A program made the translations under genes and the position numbers. This document shows, in pieces, positions 15,850 through 35,800 of a stretch of 64,000 nucleotides of DNA (position 1 is the first letter of the stretch; each line of letters opens with the position of its first letter). The DNA comes from Mesaphorura yosii (lineage: Eukaryota > Arthropoda > Collembola > Poduromorpha > Tullbergiidae): contig WIXG01000105.1 of assembly GCA_009869945.1 (NCBI GenBank), positions 157,039-221,038 of the forward strand, in the 5' to 3' direction. A model generated the notes under the pieces. It ran no database searches. It was not told the DNA's origin and was given only the letters and a program-made list of their open reading frames with translations.

Positions 15850-16180
15850 CCTTCCTGCTTGTAATTGTTCAACTGAAAAACTGATTTAACCACAGTAAAC
15901 TATACTCAATTATTTCACGACGGACGACCAAGCCAAGTTCTTCCAAATCGCGCAGTGCAGTCGAACCGGTTGCGCTTTCATATTATAAAGATCACATCAC
16001 AAAACTCATCCTTGCGTTGGGAGACGTGATCTCTCATCGCGTCGCATCTTCTAAGTTGAATTACGGCGACTAGACTGCGACTTGACGGCACGGAGCTGGG
16101 TACTCAAACGGGAACCTAGTGATAAGGCGTTATTAAGCAGCTTTAGCTGTTTAGTGATGGTGTGTTCAGGAAGCTTCATC
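15850..16180. promoter_or_regulatory. shared upstream region of POLR2I and IntS5
   Basis: The two start codons face away from each other across 331 bases, so both promoters must overlap or share this interval unless there are hidden upstream exons. A TATTATAAAG string lies near 15981-15991. The plus-strand frame of IntS5 stays open back to an ATG at 16082, so the IntS5 start could be earlier. No proven element is visible. Confidence 0.55.
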
Positions 16181-19100
16181 ATGGACACCGGAGGAACTTC
16201 ACCTGCATCTTCATCTTCCAATGCATCGGTCTTAAAATGCATGATTGGACGGAGCTCGAACCCGACACCAGAGGAGCTGCTCCACCAGCTCCGATCGTTT
16301 CTGGTTGGATCCAAACGAGCAACTGACCTGCAAGAATGTATTTACAAGGGGCTATGGCTACTTCGACATTTGCCGGTGGCACGCGACGCTGTTTTTGACC
16401 TTATCTCAGTGATCTACGTCGACTTTGCGAATACACACTTGACTAAACTTGAGCAGGTAAGCTGAATATCATTAAAGCTGGCGGACTGCCCGGAATTTAA
16501 TGCCTCTTTGTTTTAGTTGCAGAAATGGAGTGACAAAGTAGCCCGAAATACTGCGGCGGTGGCGGACGAAGATCTGGACGAGGATGGAAATCCGGCAACT
16601 TTCAGTGCCATTGTAGACGACATTCATGCAACATTAATTTACTACCTAAACTCTTGCAATGAAATCTGGTCTCCTATACTGTCTACTTGGTCGCTGCAGC
16701 TTTTGGGCCAAATATCGACGGAGTACTCCAACCGGACAGCGATTACAAGAGCCCAAACTGTGAACGAAATCATTAAAATTTGGATCGGATCGAAGGCAAT
16801 ACAAAGTTTACTGGACATTACGTCAAAGTGCTTAAGAACTATTAATCAGTCTAGCACTAATACGTTCGTATCAGCTCTTTTGGGTGAGTTTTGTAGCAAT
16901 CAGGGTACCACAATTCTATTATTATCTACTCTACAGCTGCATTATGTGTTTAGATACGAGCGCGCAGCATAGCCCCCACTTTGATTGGGTCGTGGCCCAC
17001 GTTGGAAATTCGTACCCCCAAACTGTTGTGAATGAAGTCCTCGGGTTGGGGCTGCAACAGTTTTCTTCGACTCCGCCGCAGATTTCTAGAATACGTTCTG
17101 TCGATGGGATTCTCGGATATTTAGCTACGACGCACGCGAAAGAAGTGGAGCTGGCCTTCGATCAAACTATCCAGGTAACTTGCTGGCTGGCTGGCTGGCT
17201 GGCTGACATGTAATTCTTTTCTGTCGGTGTAACGAAACCTGTACTAATTAATTGCAATTGTATTGCTTGCATTTAGAGCGGACTGTCTTCGATGAGCCAA
17301 ACTGCAGAGAATTATGCGATCCCTTTCTTGTTGCGACTGTGTTCGTCATCCGTTCCATTGCTGGATGTCTTGCTTGACTGTGCGATCCCGAAAGGTAAGA
17401 GGCTTGGTGTGGAGAGTGCAGAATGGTGCAATTGCGTTTACGAATTTTAATATAATTAAAGTTTTGTCTCCGTTAGTTAATGAAGACACCCTCAGAACAA
17501 TTGGACGATTATTTCCTCAATGGGTCGCGCTCCACTTTGGAGGAAACGTAAAGATGCTCATTGATCTCATCACGCACTCGATTCTCAAAAGCAAACGGGG
17601 ACCAAAGGCACTTGTTATGCTGATCTACGGTTGCAAAACGTGGGATGGGTTGGTCGGAGTGAATGCGCGACTTCTTCTGGGTAAGATTAATTCAGGAACT
17701 TTGATTAACAGACTGAAATAAGGCCGGAAATATAGAAATCATGCTTTATGTATTCGCGTTCGTTTCAGACCAATTTGTAATGGAGCTGTCAACCATCCAC
17801 TACGATTTGGACTCCCCGCACAAGAATTTTTCTTGCATCGCAGAACTGCGTGACAACGCCGAAATGCTTCTGCCTTTCTTAACCGACTCCGATCCACAAA
17901 TTGCGAGATCGACGAAGCAAATTATTAAAGTCATAGCGTACTACCAGACATTTTCGCCTGGAGAAAAGGCGATTGTCCACTACATCCGATTTTCGACGTG
18001 TGATTCACATCTGTGGCACCTCGCCAGCCTGATCAGCGCGCTGGAGGTCATGCACCCAAACATTCTGACCGAAGCGGTGCTCACGCTCACGGTCAAGTCT
18101 GGCCTGTTAAACGCTGAGAAGAAATCTGAGCCAGAAAATCTGAGGCAATGGAAAAACGTGTTGCGGCTGGTCAAATCTGAAGTTCTCCCACAATTTCCAG
18201 TGAAAACCGGATTTTCTCAAGTCATCCGCGAAAATCTAACACGATTCACGCCGTTCCTCGACGTCCGTAAGCCGAATTTTTGCATTGAAGAGGCGACGAT
18301 CATAATCGAGATGCTGGCGAACATCGGCGGTGGCGGCGGGCTCACGCGCAAAGTTCGGTTTGGAACTCTGCTGACACTCGAGCGGTACCTCGTCGATTTG
18401 CTCTTCAAAGTGCTCGAGGCCACGGCCCCCGAAAACCGCCAAGAAAAAATTCTAACCGTCTGCAACATTTCCAAGCTGCTCTTCGACCTCGCCTCCGTCC
18501 CGGCGATTCAGAACGACGCACTCCGGAGCCTCGTCCAGTCTTCCCTCAACCCAGAGTGCAAAGACCTGTTCAAGAATATTCGGACGCGCACGTCGATGGT
18601 GACGTCGATGAACTGCGAGAGCAACCTGACCGACAGCGACGAGTACAAACCGGAGCGGTTCACAATGTACGTCTCGCTCCTCAACGAAAACTTCAAGCGC
18701 CGATCGAGCTCGAACATTATGCGCGTGCAGTCGAGCAGTTTCCATTCGGGGCGACTCGCGAAGCAGAATTTTATAAACTCGGACTCTATGTCGAAGATTG
18801 AAGTGAAAGAGAATCCCGACTGGAATTTGAATGTGGAGCTGTTTCTTGGCGTCCTACTGAACGTATGCATGACGGAGACGTCGGCGTACCCGAACGGCGG
18901 TGGCGTCAGCGGGGGGAAAAATGGAGTGGGCATGGACTTGGACGGCCCTGTTCGAAACGGGCACGGACACGCGTTTCCGGAGTCAAGGAAAGACAGAGAA
19001 GCAACCTCCTCCAGCGGCGGCGGCAGGAGCACGCCAGTGCCAGTGACTGATTGCGGAGTTTCGATTGAGGCGATGAGAAAAATTGCACTCCTGATGGTCG

Positions 19101-19908
19101 AAATTGTGTCGCCCGACGTAATGTTCAATGGTCTACCATGGCCAGACGAAGAATTCAGCAAGGTAACTATGCAACTAATTTAATTAATGGACGCGGCGGA
19201 CGCTGGCATTAAGAAAAACGAATGATTTTTGAATTTTCGCGCGTGTGCTCACTTTTGCTTGTATTCTCAGTTGCAAGCAGAACGGGATTTGCAAATACGG
19301 CGGGCCTTCGAAGACCATCCTTATCTCTGGGACTTGCTCGAGCTCGTGGCCCACCACTGCCCTTCGCTGTGTTATTGTTCTGTGCTCCTTCGGGCGCTCA
19401 TGGCGGCTTTGATGGCTCATTGGGCGTCACAGGTAAGTCTCCCATATAAATTAAGGTTCAAAGTTCAAAGACTCCTTTGCTAATTGACCCTGAGTTTGAC
19501 CGCTGATTTGTGATTTCACAGGACATCAAAGTCTCTCGCACTCCGCTTCAGCTGCAGTGGACCCTCCGCCTCATCGAAATAATGAAAACCGGCCAGCTCA
19601 TCCCTCCGCCGCTCTGCCACATTGGAAAGTTGTTGCCCGAGCTGAAATCCACAGAAGCCTTCCTGCTCCTGAAGGATATTTGGTGGTACATGAAAGTCAA
19701 CGTCCCCGTGCCCACGGCCTTCATCCGTGACTCGGCGACGAAGAAATACATCCGGAATTCAGACTTCCTTAAAATCGACCCGGTCTTCACGGAAAAACTG
19801 CGGCTCGTCGTGCTGAATAACGTCGCGACGTTTGGCCATCTGTATTGTAAATTATTTCCCACGGATATCGACATTGACGATGACGACGCCATCGAAGTGC
19901 TAAACTAA
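16181..19908 (+). CDS. IntS5: Integrator complex subunit 5
   Basis: Helical scaffold subunit of the nuclear Integrator complex, which cleaves snRNA 3' ends and terminates paused RNA polymerase II. Eight exons keep frame: 16181-16456, 16517-16883, 16954-17174, 17277-17394, 17477-17680, 17769-19162, 19271-19432 and 19522-19908. They give 1042 residues, against about 1019 in human. Diagnostic matches to human INTS5 from memory are HSPHFDWVVAHVGNSYP, VDGILGYLA, LPWPDEEF, and LCYCSVLLRALMAALMAHW near the C-terminus. The C-terminus is acidic. A Gly/Ser-rich insert sits near residues 780-830 in exon 6 (around 18890-19040). I chose the ATG at 16181, which opens MDTGGTSP; an in-frame ATG at 16082 is possible. 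The tail faces the RFX gene. Confidence 0.95.
17183..17205 (+). repeat. (CTGG)n tetranucleotide repeat in IntS5 intron 3
   Basis: About five to six CTGG units directly after the intron 3 donor. Simple microsatellite, likely length-variable. Confidence 0.85.
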
Positions 19909-19945
19909 GCAAATTAACTTTGTATAAACCGGAAATATAGTAACG

Positions 19946-19951
19946 TTTATT
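19946..19951 (-). terminator. candidate polyadenylation signal of the RFX gene
   Basis: Reads AATAAA on the minus strand, about 107 bases past the RFX stop codon and only 38 bases past the IntS5 stop on the other strand. The two 3' UTRs therefore probably overlap. Confidence 0.55.
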
Positions 19952-20057
19952 AACATAATTGCTTGAGAGAGAAACAATGAAATAATACAGCATTTTCTTT
20001 TTTCTATTCTGTAATTCACAAATCAACTGCTCGGAAAGAAATACACCTTTGCCTAAT

Positions 20058-21878
20058 TTACACCGACATCGACTCCACCATATTTTCTGTTCCTTCTTCT
20101 CCAGTTTCTCCAGCCTCCGCGTCCACGCCTCCTTCGTCTTGCCTGCCACCTGCGTCTGCTTGTTCGATCAGCGACTTGTTTCTGGTGTAGTTCAGATGAT
20201 AATTCTGTGATTCCTTGGCAGAGATTCCGCTTGGGTGTCCGTAATACGAAGGAAGGTCGTTGAGGTCCACGAATTTTAGTGTCGAGGTTGGTTTGAGCAC
20301 CAGGCCAGAGTAATGATATCTTGAACGTCCACGAGTTCCCAAACGTCGAGTTTCGATCCCCAAGAAGACTGATCGAATGAGTTTCCCGAACGATGCTGCG
20401 TTGAGGGGCTCCAGCCCGTGGAAGTTGCAGTGCTCCATGTAATGGAAATACACAGCCGATCGTGGAATGCTTCCGCTCTTGTCCGTCTTGAAATTGTTCA
20501 TCAGCCATTGGACCTGAGAATAAACAGCATGAGCAATTAAAATTAAAATCTCATGCGGAAATTCGATGTGAGTGCGTATTTCTTACGGTCAAAGAAGAAA
20601 ACTGCATTGGAGTCGAGGCACAGCCACTGCGTTTCGGTGTCACGCGGAACATTGACCGCTGCTGGAAGTTGGCGGAATTTAGTGGAGACAACGGGTCGAA
20701 AGCCAATTCATTTCTGCACAAGAAATTCAGGACCACAAAGTGTTCCTCCATTTCCTCTCCGTCGTCCATGCCTCCAAATTGTTCAGGTTGGTTCTGGTCC
20801 TGATTCTCCTTTTCCTGCTCAACCTTCGTGAAATACTCCTTCAAAGCTTGCAGCCGTTTCTAAAATTGAAATCCAGTCGTAATCAGCGAACGTCTCGTAA
20901 AGTTCAAAGATAGCTCGAGCTTGCGAAGATCGTGGACTTTACCTTCGCGTAGAATTCCCTCAGCCGTCCCGTATTCGTTGGCGGACGAGGAATTGTTCTG
21001 ATGTAATTCGCCGCTCGTTCTTTGTAAGTGTGCGAGTACGTGTTTCTTGGAACATTTCTTGTAATGTTAAAGTCCACTGTGAATGTTGGCGGATTCGTCA
21101 TTGACGTGCGGCTGGGATGGCCGTAGTACGACGGAAGTTCGTTAACGTCGATGTACTTCAGCGTGGATGTTGGTTTCAGGACCAGCCCAGAGTAATGGTA
21201 ACGAGACTTGCCGCGAGTTCCCAGGCGCCGAGTTTCGATGCGGAGGAATACGGATCTGATGAGCTTCCCGAAAGACGCTGCGTTCAAGGGCTCCAAGCCG
21301 TGTTGCTTGCAGTGCTCGATGTAGTGGTAATAGACGGTCGAACGTGGAATGCTTCCGTTCTTATCAGTTTGGTAATTCTTCATCAGCCATTGCACCTGTA
21401 ATCAGTAAAGTAGTGGATGAGATCGACTTTTACGAGTTTACACTTGAGCCTGGTGTTAAACTTACTGTCAAAGAAGAAAATGGCATCGCAGCCGGAACTG
21501 GAGCGACCACCGGCGCTGGTTGACCTTGAGCTTGATCACCATCATTTTCTGTGCCTGCCGTATTCTCAGCTGAATTTGGTGCATTTTCGGAAGCTGCCGG
21601 CTTGTTCTTTCCTGTGCCAATGACGACGACTTTTTCCTCAATTTCTCCATAATCTTGCCAGGAGTGAAGTTGTCCGGCTACCGCCGGAGGGTCCATATTC
21701 TCTTGACCCAAACATGCCTGCAGGCACTGATAACGTCTCTGCAGTGCAAGAAGGTCGGTCATTAAACATGACGACAAAGAAACCGACCCCAACGTCTCTG
21801 ATCAGTCGATAATGCACTTACCATTGCAACTTCATCGCGAAGAGGTCTTTGGCCCACGACGACCGCGGTTGTCTCCAT
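20058..21878 (-). CDS. tandem RFX DNA-binding domain transcription factor
   Basis: Predicted nuclear DNA-binding protein. Five exons, all in phase 0: 21878-21822, 21738-21466, 21395-20943, 20859-20587 and 20513-20058, giving 503 residues. Exons 3 and 5 each start with VQWLM and encode a full RFX winged helix (about residues 111-190 and 353-432). Both contain IPRS, NAASFGKLIRSVF, the recognition stretch ETRRLGTRG, and YHYSGL (YHYYG in most RFX proteins). The two domains match at 80 of 95 positions. Exons 2 and 4 are both 273 bases and end FSSLT, so an exon pair was duplicated. The extended dimerisation region of RFX1-3 is not visible. The start codon follows directly on an in-frame stop. Two separate genes are unlikely because exon 3 has a good donor and no in-frame stop before it. 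Confidence 0.9.
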
Positions 21879-22612
21879 TCAGAAGGCAGTAGGTCGGTCC
21901 TGTTCCCGTTCCAGTGTAGAGTAGCGTAAATGCGTCGATGTACGATGTGGTCTTGACTGACCGCCGCGTCTTGACAACGTGTTCAAGATCAAACCCACGA
22001 GAACCAGTTCCAGTACGTTCGAACTTCTGTATCAATGCACTGCAATAAAGGGTCAAGTCGAAGATCCATGAAGAAGTACACCGCACACGAAAGGCGAAAG
22101 ACGAATCTCCATGGATTCTGATGAATGGAGGCACACACGGCACGACTTGAAAAGGCTGCCTACCGGCCTGGATGCTGGTTGTCAAAGAAATTAAGACTTG
22201 ATGGAGGAAGAATTGGCTGCCCGTATCGCTGGGTGTTCTCTTTTTATGTTTTTCTGTCTTCTGCGACTGAAATGAATATGGAAGTTGAATCAAACACAGG
22301 AACGAGATCGTTTGCACTGTGCACCGAGAAGGCCATCCTTCCCTTATGATTGGAAACCAGAATCTTTCAAGCATTTCTAGTAAATGTCATTGATATGTTT
22401 GCTTCAAATGGCTTTTATGATTGCAGGGCAGCGGCTTTGGTTGTAGTGCTCCATTTCCCACGCACTTGTTTGTCGTCTTCGACTCGTCCAGGATTTGTTT
22501 TCCGTCAATAAATTCACATTTCTCGAAGCAAATTAGAACCTGATAGTAATTCCAGATACAAGTTCTGTCTTTGGAAGATCTGACATCTGCACTTTAGGAC
22601 GATTAACGGACG
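21879..22612. promoter_or_regulatory. region between divergent RFX and orphan genes
   Basis: 734 bases between two start codons pointing away from each other. It must carry 5' UTRs and promoters of both genes. I could not place a convincing TATA box or initiator. The minus-strand open frame through 21832-22374 is not in frame with the RFX coding exon. Confidence 0.45.
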
Positions 22613-23479
22613 ATGGAGACGAAGGTTAAAGTTAAAGGTAAGTTCAATTTCATAATTTGCCGAATCTGGTGGTCGAAATTGAAATTACTGATCTCAGCTC
22701 ACACTCTGCTCTGTGCAGGCAGGCTCTACAGTCCATTTCAGGCACGAATTCAGTCGCTTCCAGAAGAAATGGAAATAGAATTGAACTCTTGGTCTAGAGA
22801 ATCATCATCAGAGTCACAGTTGCCGCCAAATCTCGGACGACTGGAACCAGCACTGGCATTGACACGTACTGGACAGTCTCCATTGGAAGCGAGTTCCGCT
22901 GATGCTGAAGGTAGAACTAGGGCTAGCGATCTCGCCCATGAGCCAACTACTGCCACTGTCACTGATCCGCCACGGCCACGGCCATTTTATCTACTTCGAG
23001 TACTTGCAAACAACGACACGAACGACCCGCAATCGCGAATGAACTCAAAGGATAAGGTCAAGATAAGCAAGATGATCGCTTTCATTCAGCGCAAGTCGAC
23101 AAAAGAGAAGCGAAAGGCGCATGAAAAAGAAATGAAGCCGAACAAGCTCAAGAGGAAACAGGCTCTCTCGCAATTCCTGAAAGGCGTGCCTGGAGACGAC
23201 CTTGACATTCCAGCGTCTGCATCAGATCCTTGCAGCAGCAGCGGAATGGGCCTTCGCCTTCGTGACGCAGCCAAGAATCGGCTCACTGCTCGCAAAGAAA
23301 TTTTGCCACTCACGACTCTGGAGTTGGCTGGATTTCGTCTCTTGCCTGGGCCATTGACATCGGGAACGGGGACGGCGCCTGACCGAGCCGAAAAATTAGA
23401 AGAGTCGTCGTTGCTTAGCCCCAGGCTTCCGACCCAGCAGTCAGTAACAGCAGCAAAGAAGGAGACCAGCAATAATTGA
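22613..23479 (+). CDS. basic protein of unknown function
   Basis: I do not recognise this protein. The preferred model has two exons, 22613-22637 and 22719-23479, giving 261 residues. The 81-base intron has GTAAGTTC and CTGTGCAG ends, and its length is divisible by three, so the unspliced reading stays open (288 residues). The spliced N-terminus is METKVKVKGRLYSPFQ. A middle Ser/Thr/Pro-rich part is followed by a Lys/Arg-rich block (KISKMIAFIQRKSTKEKRK, then KPNKLKRKQALSQFL), which could be nuclear localisation or RNA-binding sequence. The C-terminal part contains LRLRDAAKNRLTARKE. No catalytic motif is visible. Possible polyadenylation signals follow at 23507 and 23609, supporting a real transcription unit. 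Further introns cannot be excluded. Confidence 0.65.
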   Translation: METKVKVKGKFNFIICRIWWSKLKLLISAHTLLCAGRLYSPFQARIQSLPEEMEIELNSWSRESSSESQLPPNLGRLEPALALTRTGQSPLEASSADAEGRTRASDLAHEPTTATVTDPPRPRPFYLLRVLANNDTNDPQSRMNSKDKVKISKMIAFIQRKSTKEKRKAHEKEMKPNKLKRKQALSQFLKGVPGDDLDIPASASDPCSSSGMGLRLRDAAKNRLTARKEILPLTTLELAGFRLLPGPLTSGTGTAPDRAEKLEESSLLSPRLPTQQSVTAAKKETSNN

Positions 23480-23506
23480 CATTTTTGGACATGATTTTAC
23501 GTTTCC

Positions 23507-23614
23507 ATTAAATCTTTTATTTTATAAATGTCAATGCGAATGCTTTTTTAAAAAGCAGCAACACAAAATGTCCAATTTATTTGTTCCAGAATTAGCATTA
23601 ATGGCGTAAATAAA
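23507..23614 (+). terminator. candidate polyadenylation signals of the orphan gene
   Basis: ATTAAA at 23507-23512 and AATAAA at 23609-23614, 28 and 130 bases after the stop codon. The AT-rich setting fits a 3' end. Confidence 0.5.
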
Positions 23615-24520
23615 AGGTTACAAAAATGAGAAGACTCGGTAAGGAAAGACGGACGAAAGAGAGATCTCTTGGCTAATCTGGGCTAGCATTTCGCAAGCGG
23701 CAAAAAGTCAACAACGAAAATTCGCAAGACACTGCAAATCTGCAAAATGACATCACAAACTGAATGCTGAACGAATTATTATTAACGTTATCAGCCCGTA
23801 AGCTATTCGATTTGACTATTGGACCATTTATCCACGTCCATCATTCTTTATTTGATTGGTCGCCCGCGGTGTGCCCCGTCCTGTTCATTTACAAAAGGGC
23901 GCAGTTGGTTTTCTCCCTGAACGGGTTATTCTTCGACGGATGAAACCCGTTTATCAGGCAATCTTCACGCTGGTGCTCCGTCACGAATCTCTGCAATTAA
24001 ACATGCCATTGTTTAAGACCTCTGTTTAGGAAAACTTTGCACACCGCTAAAAGGTAGGATTTTGATCACTCCATGCAATTTGAATTTGATGCACTAATTC
24101 GATTACAATTCCTAAATAATTACTCGCTCAATCGATCAACTTCATGCGCTTCATGGGTGGGAAACTGTTCTAGAAGCCGCAATTGTTGACTTCGGCTAGA
24201 AAAGAATAGACGACTTGTGAGCTACAAGAAAGAGTACTTGGGATAATTAATTTAATTAACCAGTGCCAATTGAGTGCATGCACAAAAAGCATAAGAAAAC
24301 ACAACATCAAACACGTAATAGACTTAATTGACAGGTAACGTTAAAGTACTAACCCCAGAGCCGAACATCGACGGACCACGATCACGTAGGAACCTTCGGG
24401 CCAGAAGCGAGGACAAAATCCGATACGAATGACATGAAACGGTGAATAAATCGAAATCGACCGCACACAGTGCACCAGAACGCATTTGAATTTGTATTTG
24501 GATCAGCTGCTGCCGCTAAA
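23615..24520. other. intergenic, no gene seen
   Basis: Lies between two convergent 3' ends (orphan gene on plus, G-gamma on minus). AT-rich, without open frames, RNA genes or clear repeats. Confidence 0.6.
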
Positions 24521-29887: not shown

Positions 29888-32800
29888 TCATTGGATATTG
29901 CAGCAGACGGCCTGTTGAGTCGCCGGCGTCATGAGCGTTGAGATTGGGTTTCCCGAGCCGTCCACGCCCGCACCCACAGCCGATGCAGACCCCGCCGAAG
30001 GTGGCGGGAATCCGTACGGCGTCAGCTGAGTGCGGATAAGTTTCTCTCTCGGAGTAAGGTGGCTGAACACAGGCGAGTACGACGGAGGGTAGTTGTAGTT
30101 GAGGAGGTTTGGCGGCGGAGGAGACTCGTAGTCGGGGAGGGGAGGCTCGGGCAGGTCCCACGAGTCTGGCAGCTTCACCTTGCTCGCGTTGGCGGCGTAG
30201 ACGAGCTCCGCAGCAAGCGACAGAGAGTTCACGTACAGGTTCGGGGCGCCGCTACCGCCGGCGGACGAAGCAGCAGCGTTTTTCTTCATGACAGAGTGGA
30301 CAAACTCTTTATAATCTTCTTCATTGATTTCTGGTGGTGTGGAGGACTCGGCCGACTGCGCCATGCGGCCGGCTCCCTTCCACAGGACGACTCTGCTGCT
30401 CTTCTGGGAGTCGGGAGACTTGAGACTGTCCGGGTCGAACGTCCCAATCTCCTCATCCTCCTCCTGAACGGCGATCGGCGGCGTTGACGCAGTCGCAGCT
30501 GTCGTCTTGCTCTTGCTCTTCATCAGGATGGACATTTTCGTCTCGTAGAAATCACAAGTTTTGATCACTTTCGACATGTCGACTGGTGCCGTCGACATGT
30601 TGATGAAGGACGCCCGCTCCTGGTCGGCCAGGCTCAGAGAAAGCAACGCCGATTGATTCTTCTTTTTCTTCTTCTTCTTACCAGAGGTTTTCATAACAAG
30701 TTGTTGTTCTTCATGAACACCTTTCGCATCATCTCCGATTTTCGGCGTCTGTGGAGGCGTTGTCGAATTTGGAGTCGAGGAACCGGAACCAATTCCGTGA
30801 TCTTTCATGTCTTCTTCTTCGTCCTCCTGCGCTTCGGGCTCTCCTTCGAGCACAACGCCAAATTGGTAGTACTTTGCATAATTTTGTGGGTCGCAGTTTA
30901 TTGCCTCCGAGTCTGTCGCGCCCGTGCCGGGAAAAGTGGCCTCGTCAAATGACGAGGAAGACAAAGGTGCACCGGATTTCTCTTCGTCGTCCATCGTTGA
31001 CGTTAACGGTTTCGCTGCGATTTGTTTATTGCCTTTCCTTTTCTTTTTGTTCGCAGTTGCACCAGAATTCGTATTCGCACTCAAGCTTATGCTAGCATTG
31101 GCGCTTCGTTCTTCCTGCTTGCCTCCGCTTGAATTTGCGCCAGGGAAAACCAGAGCTCCGCCCGCAGGCTGCGTGTGGTGCTCGGGCGAGCTCAGATCCA
31201 AGCCAGAGTCTTCTTCGTCAACTTTCACGTGTGACTGGCAGACGTCTTTTCTGTTTTCGCTTGGACTCTTTTCTTCATCTGTCGCCGCCACGACCGTGGC
31301 TGCGCTGGTGCTTGATTTCGTGCTGCCGCGCTCGTGCCTGTGTTGGCGTTCACGCTCGCCGAGATTCAGTGACAACGACGCGGCGGGATTGGAAAACCTG
31401 TCACGACCGTGACCATGCCCGCTGTAACCACGATTGTAGTAATTACGATGTGTGTTTGAATTCTGGCTGTGGCCGTAGTTGTTGCTGTTGCTGTAATTGT
31501 GATGTGAGGAGGAAGAGGCAACCCTTGAGCTGGTACCGTCCCTTCGGCCTGCCGTCGCCGCCGCACCGTTCTTGGCGTTGGCTGAGTAATCTCTGTCTCG
31601 GGAATCTCTTCGTGATGGTCCTGACTCTTGCTGCTGCTGTTCACGCTGCTGCTGCTGATTGGAATAATAGAAAGGCCGCTGCTGATGCTGTCTGCCCTGC
31701 CAATTATCCCTGCCGTACCCCGAATTTCTTTGATTTCTCGTGTTCACGGCAGCTTTTCGATTCTTCTTACTGGACGATACAAGAACCCAAGGGTTGCCAT
31801 ACGCGTTTTTTTGGTTCTCCTCAGAATCGGTTAGACTTTGCCTATCTTCGCGGTCGCGATCGCCTTCGCGTTGGAGTTCGCCTTCGTGTCCTTCCTCTTC
31901 GCTGTCAATGTCACCGTCGTTGTCCTCAAAACCGACGGTCGCGGCTGCCGCCGCCGCGGATTTGAACTGAGCAATGATTTGTGCCGCTGGAGTGAGGGCA
32001 TCCTCGCCTGCAGTCTTCAGCCATTCAGTCACAGCAAGCGTAATACTTTTCGGTCGTTCGGCTGCTGCTCCTGAAGCGGATCCGGCTGCAGTTGACGTTG
32101 ACGGCTGCTGCTGCTCTACTTTTTCGGCTTGGCTCGTAATACTTTGCTCTGGCGACGACTCCTTCGGTTTCGATTCGTCTCTTTCTCGTTTTAAAATAAT
32201 TGGCGCACTCACATCGCGAACGCGGTCGAGCGAATGTAATTCCTGCTGTTGCGATTGCGATTCCAGAAGCTTCGCGTACGCGTAGCCGTACTTTTGAGTT
32301 TCGACGTCGAGCTCTGCGATGTGCTCTTCTTCAACTTTTTCTTCCACCTGCAGCTCAGGAGTCGGGTACAAACTTTCCAGGGGAATCCGCACAGTTTTCT
32401 CGTTTTCGCACGGTTCGTCGGTGCTGAATGGGCTTTCTGCTGTCGGCGGTTCTATTTGCCTTTCAAATGTAGACTCGGGACTCGGTGACGGTTCATTTGC
32501 GCCTGAATCTGATGGGAAAGCTGGAGACGACGATGGCGATTGTGTATCTGATTTGGAGATGGTGATTGGGCTTGAACCGGGAACAGGATTCGGATTTGGG
32601 TTCTCGGAACTCGTTGTAGAATCAATTGTGCTATTTGCTTGCTGCTGCTGAACTTGAGCGTGAAATATTTCTTGCTGCTTGAGCGGAGAACTGTTGCAAC
32701 TCAATTCACGTTCGCGCCCGTTCTCATTCTCGTCTTCGATCGGCAAATCTTCTTCGACCTCATCGATTGACGTGGTTCGGTTCATAAGATCGTCCGACAC

Positions 32801-35800
32801 AGAGCCCACAATCTCGGATCCGGCAACGCTCTGGGTTGTGTTGAAGGAGTCTGGCGAGCCGGGTTCGAGTGTCGTGGGGCTGATTTGGAGGCAGAACGGG
32901 TCCTGAGTGCTTTCCCGTTCCCCCGTCAGCGGACACGGGCCGAGTCCGCTCAGGTTTAACGGTTTCTTCACTTTAATATCGGTTGTCGTCTTGTTGTTAA
33001 TCTTGCATAGGCTCGGGCTGAGCCGCCCGAGATTAGAATCAGTCGGAGTCGGGTTTTGATTGATTTCGTGTTCGGAGGAGGGATTATTCGGGTCAATTAC
33101 ACAGGGCTTTGGCTTTGGCTTTGTGTGTTCATCATCATTCGCGTACGTCGAGTCGTCAGGAGGTGCTTCGGCTTCGTCCTCAGCTTCACCACCATCACTT
33201 CCCTCAAAACTTTCATCTGTCAACTGTGGAAACACAAATAGAGCCGAAATCAAGTGCATGAGTAACGAATCTTTCAACCTTTGCATCGAAGGCAATGAAA
33301 AACCGCTCTGATGTCGCAAAACAAAATGCAGCGCACGCCGTACTGGAAATTTCTGGAGACCTCCACCGAAATTACGCAAAGAAAAGTGTAATTAGCTTTA
33401 TGAGATTGCGGAAACAAAAACAAAGAGATCAAAGTGCTGTGCCACTGCCACGCTCGCTCACGCAAACCATCGCCATCACGTTCGTTAGCTGCAGTAAACA
33501 GTAAACGCGTACAGATATCAACTATCAGCTTCTACAGCGGGTATACGCTAGACGCATAGCATAAATTAATCATAGTCGGGCAGACTGGCGGGCAGGCAGG
33601 CAGCCGAGCCATTCATCTTCTCCACTTTTGCACTCTACGCATATGACTACGATGCGACAGAATAGAGTGCAACTAACAAAGAGATTACAACATCTAAGCC
33701 TAGAATCGCCTTTGCCATTGCATTTTCATTTTGTTAAGCTTCCGTAATTATTTGACTTCGCATTAAAACGCAACATCGAGAAGAGAAGAGAAAGAGACAA
33801 AAGAGAAGAGCAGGCAAGTGCAATTAAGAAGTAGTGCCTGTAATTAATTAAGGGCAGGAAATCCTTTGTGTTGCAATTTGTAATTGGCCACAGCAAAAGC
33901 AAAACCAAAAGTCTCTTAATTAATTAATCTTCCCTACGCGAAAGACGAAAGAGAATTCAGAATTGCTGTGCATAATTTTGCATTTTGCTTTGAAAATTTG
34001 CAATTTGTTGGGGAAGAAACCAGAACAGATGAAGACGAAGGAGGATCGACACTCGCACTAACCTGGGCGTCATCATCATCATTTTGATTGTTTTCGTTAG
34101 CATCGGACAGCTCTGCCCCTGCATTTCTCCGTCTCTTTTTACGCACTTTGCGACTACAACTTGCGGCTGGGGTGGCGGAAGTGGCGGTGGCTGAAGAAGA
34201 AGCAGGAGGTGCAATTGGAACCACAACACCTAATACATAATATACGATTGATTGTAGCATACTTTGTAAAAAATAAAAGTAAAGAAAACCAAGCGCCAAG
34301 CAAAGCTCCACAAAAGGACAGACAATTAAGCAATCAAGCGACATTTAATTAATTAGCAAGTCAAGCGACTGTGAATAAAATACCAAAAGACAGACAAAAG
34401 CCGTACAGGTCAAAGGTTACACATAAAAAGCAACGAATGCTAAATAAATTGGAGTTGGACTTCTTATCACTGAGTTTTCACTTACGAATTCCTGTCTTCC
34501 TTAAAATGTGCGCGTAGATCACTACAGTTGCTAATTCACTAATCACATGTGCTGAAGATGAGGAGGCTTTCAATTGAACGGAAGTATGCACGAACTATTT
34601 AGTAATTAGCGGCCAAAGTCATTCTAATTCTGGAAGATTCTTTGTTCGAGTCGAGGAAAATCACCACCAGCACAAAAGCTGAGTCACTGCACTACAGTCG
34701 CAGTCGGAGTGAAATCAGTCAATTCCAAACTGACAAGTCAAGATTATTCTCTCATCTCGCAGATAATTTCTCCGCATTCTTTTCTCTACGTGCCCGTCTT
34801 GTCTGCACTGAATTACATTAGCGAACTGACTTGGACTTGGATTTGCTTCTGTGTTTTGCCCGACCAGATGCTAGCTAAACACAAATTGAAAAAGGAATCT
34901 CTGCTCGAACTCGAACACAAGAAGGGAGTCAACGAATTACGAATCTTTCAATCTTTCTCTACACCGCATCCTAATTACATTATGCATGCTTTGCTGCTGC
35001 CGTCTGGCTTGCTGTTGCCTCTCGTCTCGAAAGTGAATGTTCTTAAAATAGAATTAAATCTGCGATCGTCGCGTCTCGCGTCGAGAGTACATTTGGCCAC
35101 ACTCCATTTCACATCATCTTCTCATCTCATCTTATACGAAGCTTGAAGCTTAAGCTGTAATGGAAAAGTGGCCTGCCTGCGAAACAGATCTGGATTGGAT
35201 TCAATTCTCGTATCATATTGGTATTACCTCAATGAACCGTGGACCGTCGAATTTGTCTGTTTCTAGAATCCCATTACTGATCCTACACAACAGCAGCAGC
35301 TCAGCAGCGGCTTAGCAGAAGAGCGCATCGGAAAATTTATCGTCGGTCCTCCAACACAACACGAACGCGACAATTTACTTGAGATGCTCCTCGCCTTAAT
35401 GCGATTTTTAATAAATCAACACGCGATTCGCCATTTTGACTTCTTCTGCCTCTTCAATTTTCCGTAAACATGCAAATTAAATCTGGCTGCTCTCTACCTG
35501 CCATTCAACGAAGATATGCAACTTTTAAGCGAATTGTGAGAAAGGTTATTAAAACCGCAAATAGTAAGTGGCATCATGCACACAAAATATAAACATGCCG
35601 TCAATTGCCAAAAGTCGCGAATTCGCGTCTCGCGTCCTCGCGTTTCGTGTGGAGTGCCCAATATTGTTAATGTTAATTGACAACAAAACCCAAAGGACAA
35701 AGTCAATATTGCAAGGTCAAAGAAGGCTAAGGTCAGAAGCTTTTGCTGGAGTAGCAGCAAGAACTCGTGTTAAGAGTGTGCAGTCGTGGTCGGCTGGCGA

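Follow-up and report, generated by a model that had tools for sequence, protein, structure and literature searches.

A minus-strand gene of the collembolan Mesaphorura yosii raises the question of whether a single protein can carry two RFX DNA-binding domains (DBDs), how such a protein could have arisen and what it might do at RFX targets. RFX factors direct the gene programmes of cilia, and the X-box is a two-half site. Within the window, that is, the whole 64-kb stretch of DNA analysed, the predicted gene (hereafter the fused RFX gene) occupies positions 21878-20058 on the minus strand, and its five exons give 503 codons plus a stop. All four introns are GT-AG and in phase 0, with lengths of 83, 70, 83 and 73 nt. 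The features, in window coordinates, are as follows:

21879..22606, unstranded: upstream interval, beyond which a head-to-head frame on the plus strand starts at 22607
21822..21878, minus strand: exon 1, start codon and 19 codons; TGA in frame immediately 5' of the ATG; donor ATG/GTAAGT
21466..21738, minus strand: exon 2, N-terminal region, last residues PFSSLT; open, phase 0
20943..21395, minus strand: exon 3, RFX DNA-binding domain 1 (conserved block 21111-21395) and tail
20860..20942, minus strand: intron 3, 83 nt, the junction joining the two halves
20587..20859, minus strand: exon 4, linker, last residues QFSSLT
20058..20513, minus strand: exon 5, RFX DNA-binding domain 2 (conserved block 20229-20513), acidic tail and stop
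19946..19951, minus strand: AATAAA, possible poly(A) signal 3' of exon 5

The first-pass annotation had described two complete domains, identical at 80 of 95 residues, in one open phase-0 chain joined at 20943/20859; the exons and the Pfam matches agree with this description, and the junction is exact. Since every exon is in phase 0, exon skipping could also give one-domain forms. Across the join of exons 3 and 4, the residues LREFYAK followed by KRLQALKEYFTKVEQEKENQ look, by eye, like an amphipathic helix, and the acidic tail may have an activation role.

In the surroundings, an Integrator subunit 5 gene (16055-19905, plus strand) is convergent with the fused RFX gene; INTS5_N and INTS5_C matches were found in six of the seven frames scanned, one INTS5_N match (26.4 bits) lying just below the cut-off of 27. 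On the other side, a 290-codon frame (22607-23479, plus strand), head to head with the fused gene, is perhaps MED19, judging from a weak match to PF10278 (Mediator subunit 19; E 0.0035) that at 17.8 bits is below the cut-off of 25. Farther away, a 1167-codon open frame rich in low-complexity sequence (29891-33391, minus strand) matched no Pfam family at E 0.001; the window scan took in 98 frames, most of them drawn from the listed 166 frames of at least 85 codons.

Both DBDs were recovered with high scores. PF02257 matches two stretches of the spliced protein with 215.8 bits together (E 8.5e-65), and in the genome scan domain 1 reached 113.3 bits and domain 2 106.9 bits, both over the curated cut-off of 27. 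From the Pfam stretches and exon lengths, the two domains are spaced by about 165 residues. The weaker matches to Pox_D5 and Cdc6_C (two stretches each) are read as related winged-helix models, and those to EF-hand_8 and DUF5505 as chance. In the DNA, 220 of 285 nt of the domain blocks are identical; the repeat runs over 288 nt at 77% identity with a spacing of 882 nt, and it also covers the final 29 nt of exons 2 and 4 together with 5 nt of the introns that follow (34 nt, 82%). The closest solved fold of both domains is 1dp7, RFX1 on an X-box. AlphaFold was run on each DBD exon with a three-row alignment: for exon 5 the domain was modelled with confidence (block means 86-96 through residue 80) and matches 1dp7 by fold at E 1.3e-9, with an rmsd of 0.7 over 73 columns; exon 3 gave a low-confidence model (mean pLDDT 54.3) whose top fold match was again 1dp7 (E 1.1e-7, rmsd 2.8), and its sequence finds 1dp7 at E 3.4e-28. 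Outside the domains pLDDT was below 50.

The differences between the two copies, 65 of 285 nt, fall 13, 6 and 46 on first, second and third codon positions (dN 0.106 and dS 1.51 by NG86, dS being near saturation). As they are mostly silent, both copies look constrained; in a copy free to drift, many more replacements would be expected. TRRLGTRG is identical in each copy and in the ordinary RFX gene of this genome, so the recognition stretch is kept in both copies, as had been noted before. Likewise, neither copy differs from the ordinary gene at R18, K44, R47, R56, R57, R61, S64, Y66, H67 or Y68; K65 is R. Some of these residues are candidate DNA contacts. In the available text of two papers, nine DNA-contact residues are counted in RFX DBDs, the first being Arg or Lys, with the positions unnumbered there (PMC2873420, PMC2533330). 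Twelve substitutions are common to both copies, among them an R-to-E change at site 54 and an R-to-V change at site 72. R54E reverses a charge just N-terminal of TRRLGTRG and R72V lies near the end; together they could weaken or change DNA binding. With twelve shared substitutions, one of them charge-reversing in front of the recognition stretch, the binding specificity of the fused protein may have shifted. The earlier suggestion that both domains are functional thus agrees with the substitution pattern and the retained residues; it does not extend to an unchanged specificity, given the shared R54E and R72V.

Ten PF02257 matches at E <= 1, two of them in the fused gene, were found in the genome (93.0 Mb, 1127 contigs). 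The same genome has 66 matches to the cuticle domain PF00379, as would suit an arthropod better than a tardigrade, and a single match, at E 0.015, to a tardigrade SAHS protein. The ordinary RFX gene (C105:22147-24397), assembled as a 602-residue part, has PF02257 and a full BCD dimerisation domain (357.4 bits), and it lies on the same contig and strand as the fused gene, about 153 kb apart. The same phase-0 intron precedes VQWL in both genes, and in each the DBD exon is uninterrupted. An RFX5/7-like gene on contig C54 gives two PF02257 matches, with an intron inside the domain. Weaker matches lie on C1078, C626, C189 (with two internal stops), C258 and C104; the first two, in open frames, pass the Pfam cut-off with 35.4 bits (C1078, L015:2578-3906) and 35.6 bits (C626, L006:1423-1848). 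The terminal stretch of the C1078 frame resembles, by eye, the final part of a LINE reverse transcriptase; the frame is upstream of LTR-retroelement-type frames (Integrase_H2C2, L015:6874-7479; DUF5641, L015:7889-8413). An RFX-like winged helix may be carried by a mobile element. Beyond this genome, none of seven pattern matches among viral contigs was confirmed as a relative, and in prokaryote genomes one of 402 was confirmed, a match of 18 residues (78%) from a metagenome bin; its contig (L041, JAITHX010000036.1) is binned as Prevotellaceae and is possibly eukaryotic contamination.

The ancestry of the fused gene can be read from 74 aligned sites. Its domain copies share 47 and 46 of these with human RFX1 and 51 and 49 with the ordinary gene, the latter itself sharing 65 with human RFX1. 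Both copies are therefore above the identity to known RFX DBDs, at least 40%, that the available part of PMC2873420 gives for membership of the family. Twelve sites support a pairing of the two copies with each other and of the ordinary gene with human RFX1; no site supports either of the other two groupings. In IQ-TREE trees built without RFX4 or RFX6 sequences, the two copies pair with support of 81/80 in a six-row tree and 100/100 in an unrooted four-row tree; in an eight-row tree that includes the long mobile-element rows, the pair was not recovered with resolution. A fork of its own unites human RFX5 with the C54 gene (99/98 with six rows, 99/97 with eight), and the fused gene does not have an RFX5/7-type DBD. 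The site groupings and the tree support suggest that the fused gene split from an RFX1-3-type gene first and that the domain doubling came after; the fused gene is best read as a divergent duplicate of an RFX1-3-type gene that is without BCD and whose domain was doubled later.

The B, C and dimerisation domains typical of the RFX1-3 and RFX4/6 groups were not found in the fused gene. The first-pass annotation had reported no visible dimerisation region, and this was borne out: a tblastn search with the BCD of the ordinary gene found no match better than E 3.3 in the 64-kb window, and genome-wide the four matches to PF25340 all lie in the ordinary gene (C105:22602-23551). Without BCD, the fused protein should not pair with ordinary RFX by that route.

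Combining these observations, we consider it somewhat probable that an RFX1-3-type duplicate without BCD, internally doubled, encodes a single 503-residue chain that fills both X-box half-sites and competes with or modulates ordinary RFX. A duplicate of an RFX1-3-type gene would have lost, or never received, the BCD domain; an internal duplication would then have copied a segment comprising no less than the exon 2 end, the intron position and the DBD exon; and the product, read from one predicted transcript of the whole gene, would be a single 503-residue protein with its two winged helices about 165 residues apart. In 1dp7, two domains sit on the two halves of the X-box, and with such spacing one chain could reach both, making X-box bridging by the fused protein plausible. 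The single-domain RFX site is GTTRCY, and inverted pairs of it bind dimers, according to the accessible part of PMC10530576. The single chain may occupy both X-box half-sites, or two nearby half-sites, without dimerising, and might compete with or modulate ordinary RFX at shared targets. The predicted reach of one chain to both halves, together with the missing BCD pairing, favours a bivalent monomer that either has RFX targets in common with the ordinary protein or competes for them. More tentatively, and with rather less than even confidence, this animal lineage might have evolved an obligate 'monomeric dimer' RFX: doubling of the domain inside one polypeptide would have taken the place of the dimerisation domain, and the resulting bivalent X-box binder, unable to pair with ordinary RFX through BCD, would read the same regulatory code independently of it or as its antagonist. 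As for possible autoregulation, a search of the 64-kb window with one X-box consensus and up to two mismatches found none, against 2.2 expected by chance; the upstream interval (21879-22606) contains none of the half-sites GTTGCC, GGCAAC, GTTACC, GGTAAC, GTTGCT and AGCAAC, and no GTTRCY in the plus-strand reading.

The shared R54E and R72V count against a plain copy of RFX1 binding, and they lead to the alternative that survives best, namely that of a fused protein acting as a decoy or antagonist with impaired DNA binding, in which the doubled domain binds a changed site or other partners and does not bridge an X-box. The absence of BCD would suit such a role, as would the presence of R54E and R72V among twelve shared changes in a genome whose ordinary RFX keeps 65 of 74 human RFX1 residues; however, R18, K44, R47, R56, R57 and R61 are unchanged in both copies and the ordinary gene, and the constraint between the copies is strong, so that we consider this alternative unlikely.

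The bivalent reading also presupposes one protein, and the same stretch could instead hold two adjacent genes with one RFX domain each, the first ending at the stop at 20904-20906 and the second starting inside exon 4, possibly co-transcribed and with trans-splicing at the exon 4 acceptor. Exon 3, if unspliced, continues for 12 codons beyond its donor and then stops, making a one-domain protein possible; codon 31 of exon 4 is an in-frame ATG; and the codon bias of the exon 3 tail is weak (reached by 65 and 73 of 5000 shuffles), another frame scoring equally there. The two genes, however, would be separated by only 44 bases from the stop to exon 4, and the minus strand has no AATAAA or ATTAAA from 19952 to 23520, hence none between the domains; within 19500-24200 these signals occur on that strand only at 19951, 23521, 23581 and 23852, the signal at 19946-19951 being the only one in 19501-23520. 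When GT..AG introns of 50-139 nt were tried with a start anywhere from where the conserved block ends to the stop at 20904, eight left the chain open into exon 4, each of them from the donor at 20942; no acceptor among them is richer in pyrimidines than that at 20860, which ties for first place. The good donor after domain 1 and good acceptor into the linker that had been proposed are thus the sole donor that keeps the chain open and a top-ranking acceptor. Together they make an intron of 83 nt, a length in line with six introns measured in the ordinary RFX gene (65-86 nt). The in-frame stop ahead of exon 4 is the TAG of its acceptor itself, meaning that the exon 4 frame opens exactly at the acceptor. 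By donor weights that are our own approximate values, the exon 4 donor (20586) scores 0.2 and the other three 3.6 to 7.0; the position of the former is supported by the 34-nt repeat shared with the boundary of exon 2 and intron 2.

Codon bias, from a small training set of 1070 codons (taken from the ordinary RFX gene plus a single INTS5 exon), points in the same direction. Exon 4, in which no Pfam family was found at E 0.1, has a codon log-odds of 0.124 in frame against -0.127 +/- 0.060 when shuffled, a value reached by none of 5000 shuffles; exon 2 is matched by nine of 5000. The first 90 nt of exon 4, which precede the in-frame ATG, are themselves coding-biased (4/5000; 8/5000 for the remainder), which is hard to square with a second gene beginning at that ATG, whereas the 36-nt read-through of exon 3 shows no such bias, short as it is (1110/5000). 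The coding bias of the linker, the single chain-opening donor and the lack of a poly(A) signal between the domains favour a single two-domain protein, as a gene model, and we regard two genes as quite improbable. The claim of one two-domain protein without a dimerisation region is accordingly well supported as a predicted gene model by the linker bias, the donor, the poly(A) signals and the BCD searches.

Finally, a duplication of assembly or haplotype origin, or a decaying pseudogene, is scarcely credible: the tandem copies are similar in sequence, but they are only 77% identical in nucleotides, 46 of their 65 differences are in third positions and their frames are open, a substitution pattern that argues strongly against it, and introns and linkers are unlike beyond weak scores (33 of 500 shuffles each for introns 1 versus 3 and 2 versus 4; no significant similarity between the exon 4 body and exon 2, with 133 of 1000 shuffles).

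If the single two-domain chain is real, it offers a natural two-reader protein without a dimerisation domain, in which the contribution of dimerisation to RFX binding can be asked directly, and likewise the way in which a duplicated regulator could avoid cross-pairing with its parent. In DBD sequence type and fold it is like the RFX1/2/3 group (human RFX1, 1dp7 and the ordinary gene here), and it shares with the ordinary gene the phase-0 intron before the DBD; unlike that group, it is short, has two DBDs and has no B, C or dimerisation domain. In the latter respect it is like RFX5 and RFX7, which have a DBD without B, C and D domains as described in the available text of PMC2533330, and the first-pass annotation's description of known RFX factors as pairing by dimerisation is therefore too broad. 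The fused protein also resembles RFX5 in the S of its YHYSG (YCYSG in RFX5). RFX5 and RFX7, however, have a single DBD, and the fused sequence groups with RFX1 rather than RFX5 (the 99/98 fork). The absence of a dimerisation domain is thus not new in itself, and it is the doubled domain that stands out. A limited literature search found no mention of an RFX protein with two RFX domains, and a precedent is possible. Doubled DNA-binding domains of one type within a protein are found in the DUX double homeodomain and in group I WRKY factors; the fused RFX protein is like them in repeating a single type of DBD within its chain, and unlike them in that they belong to other fold families.
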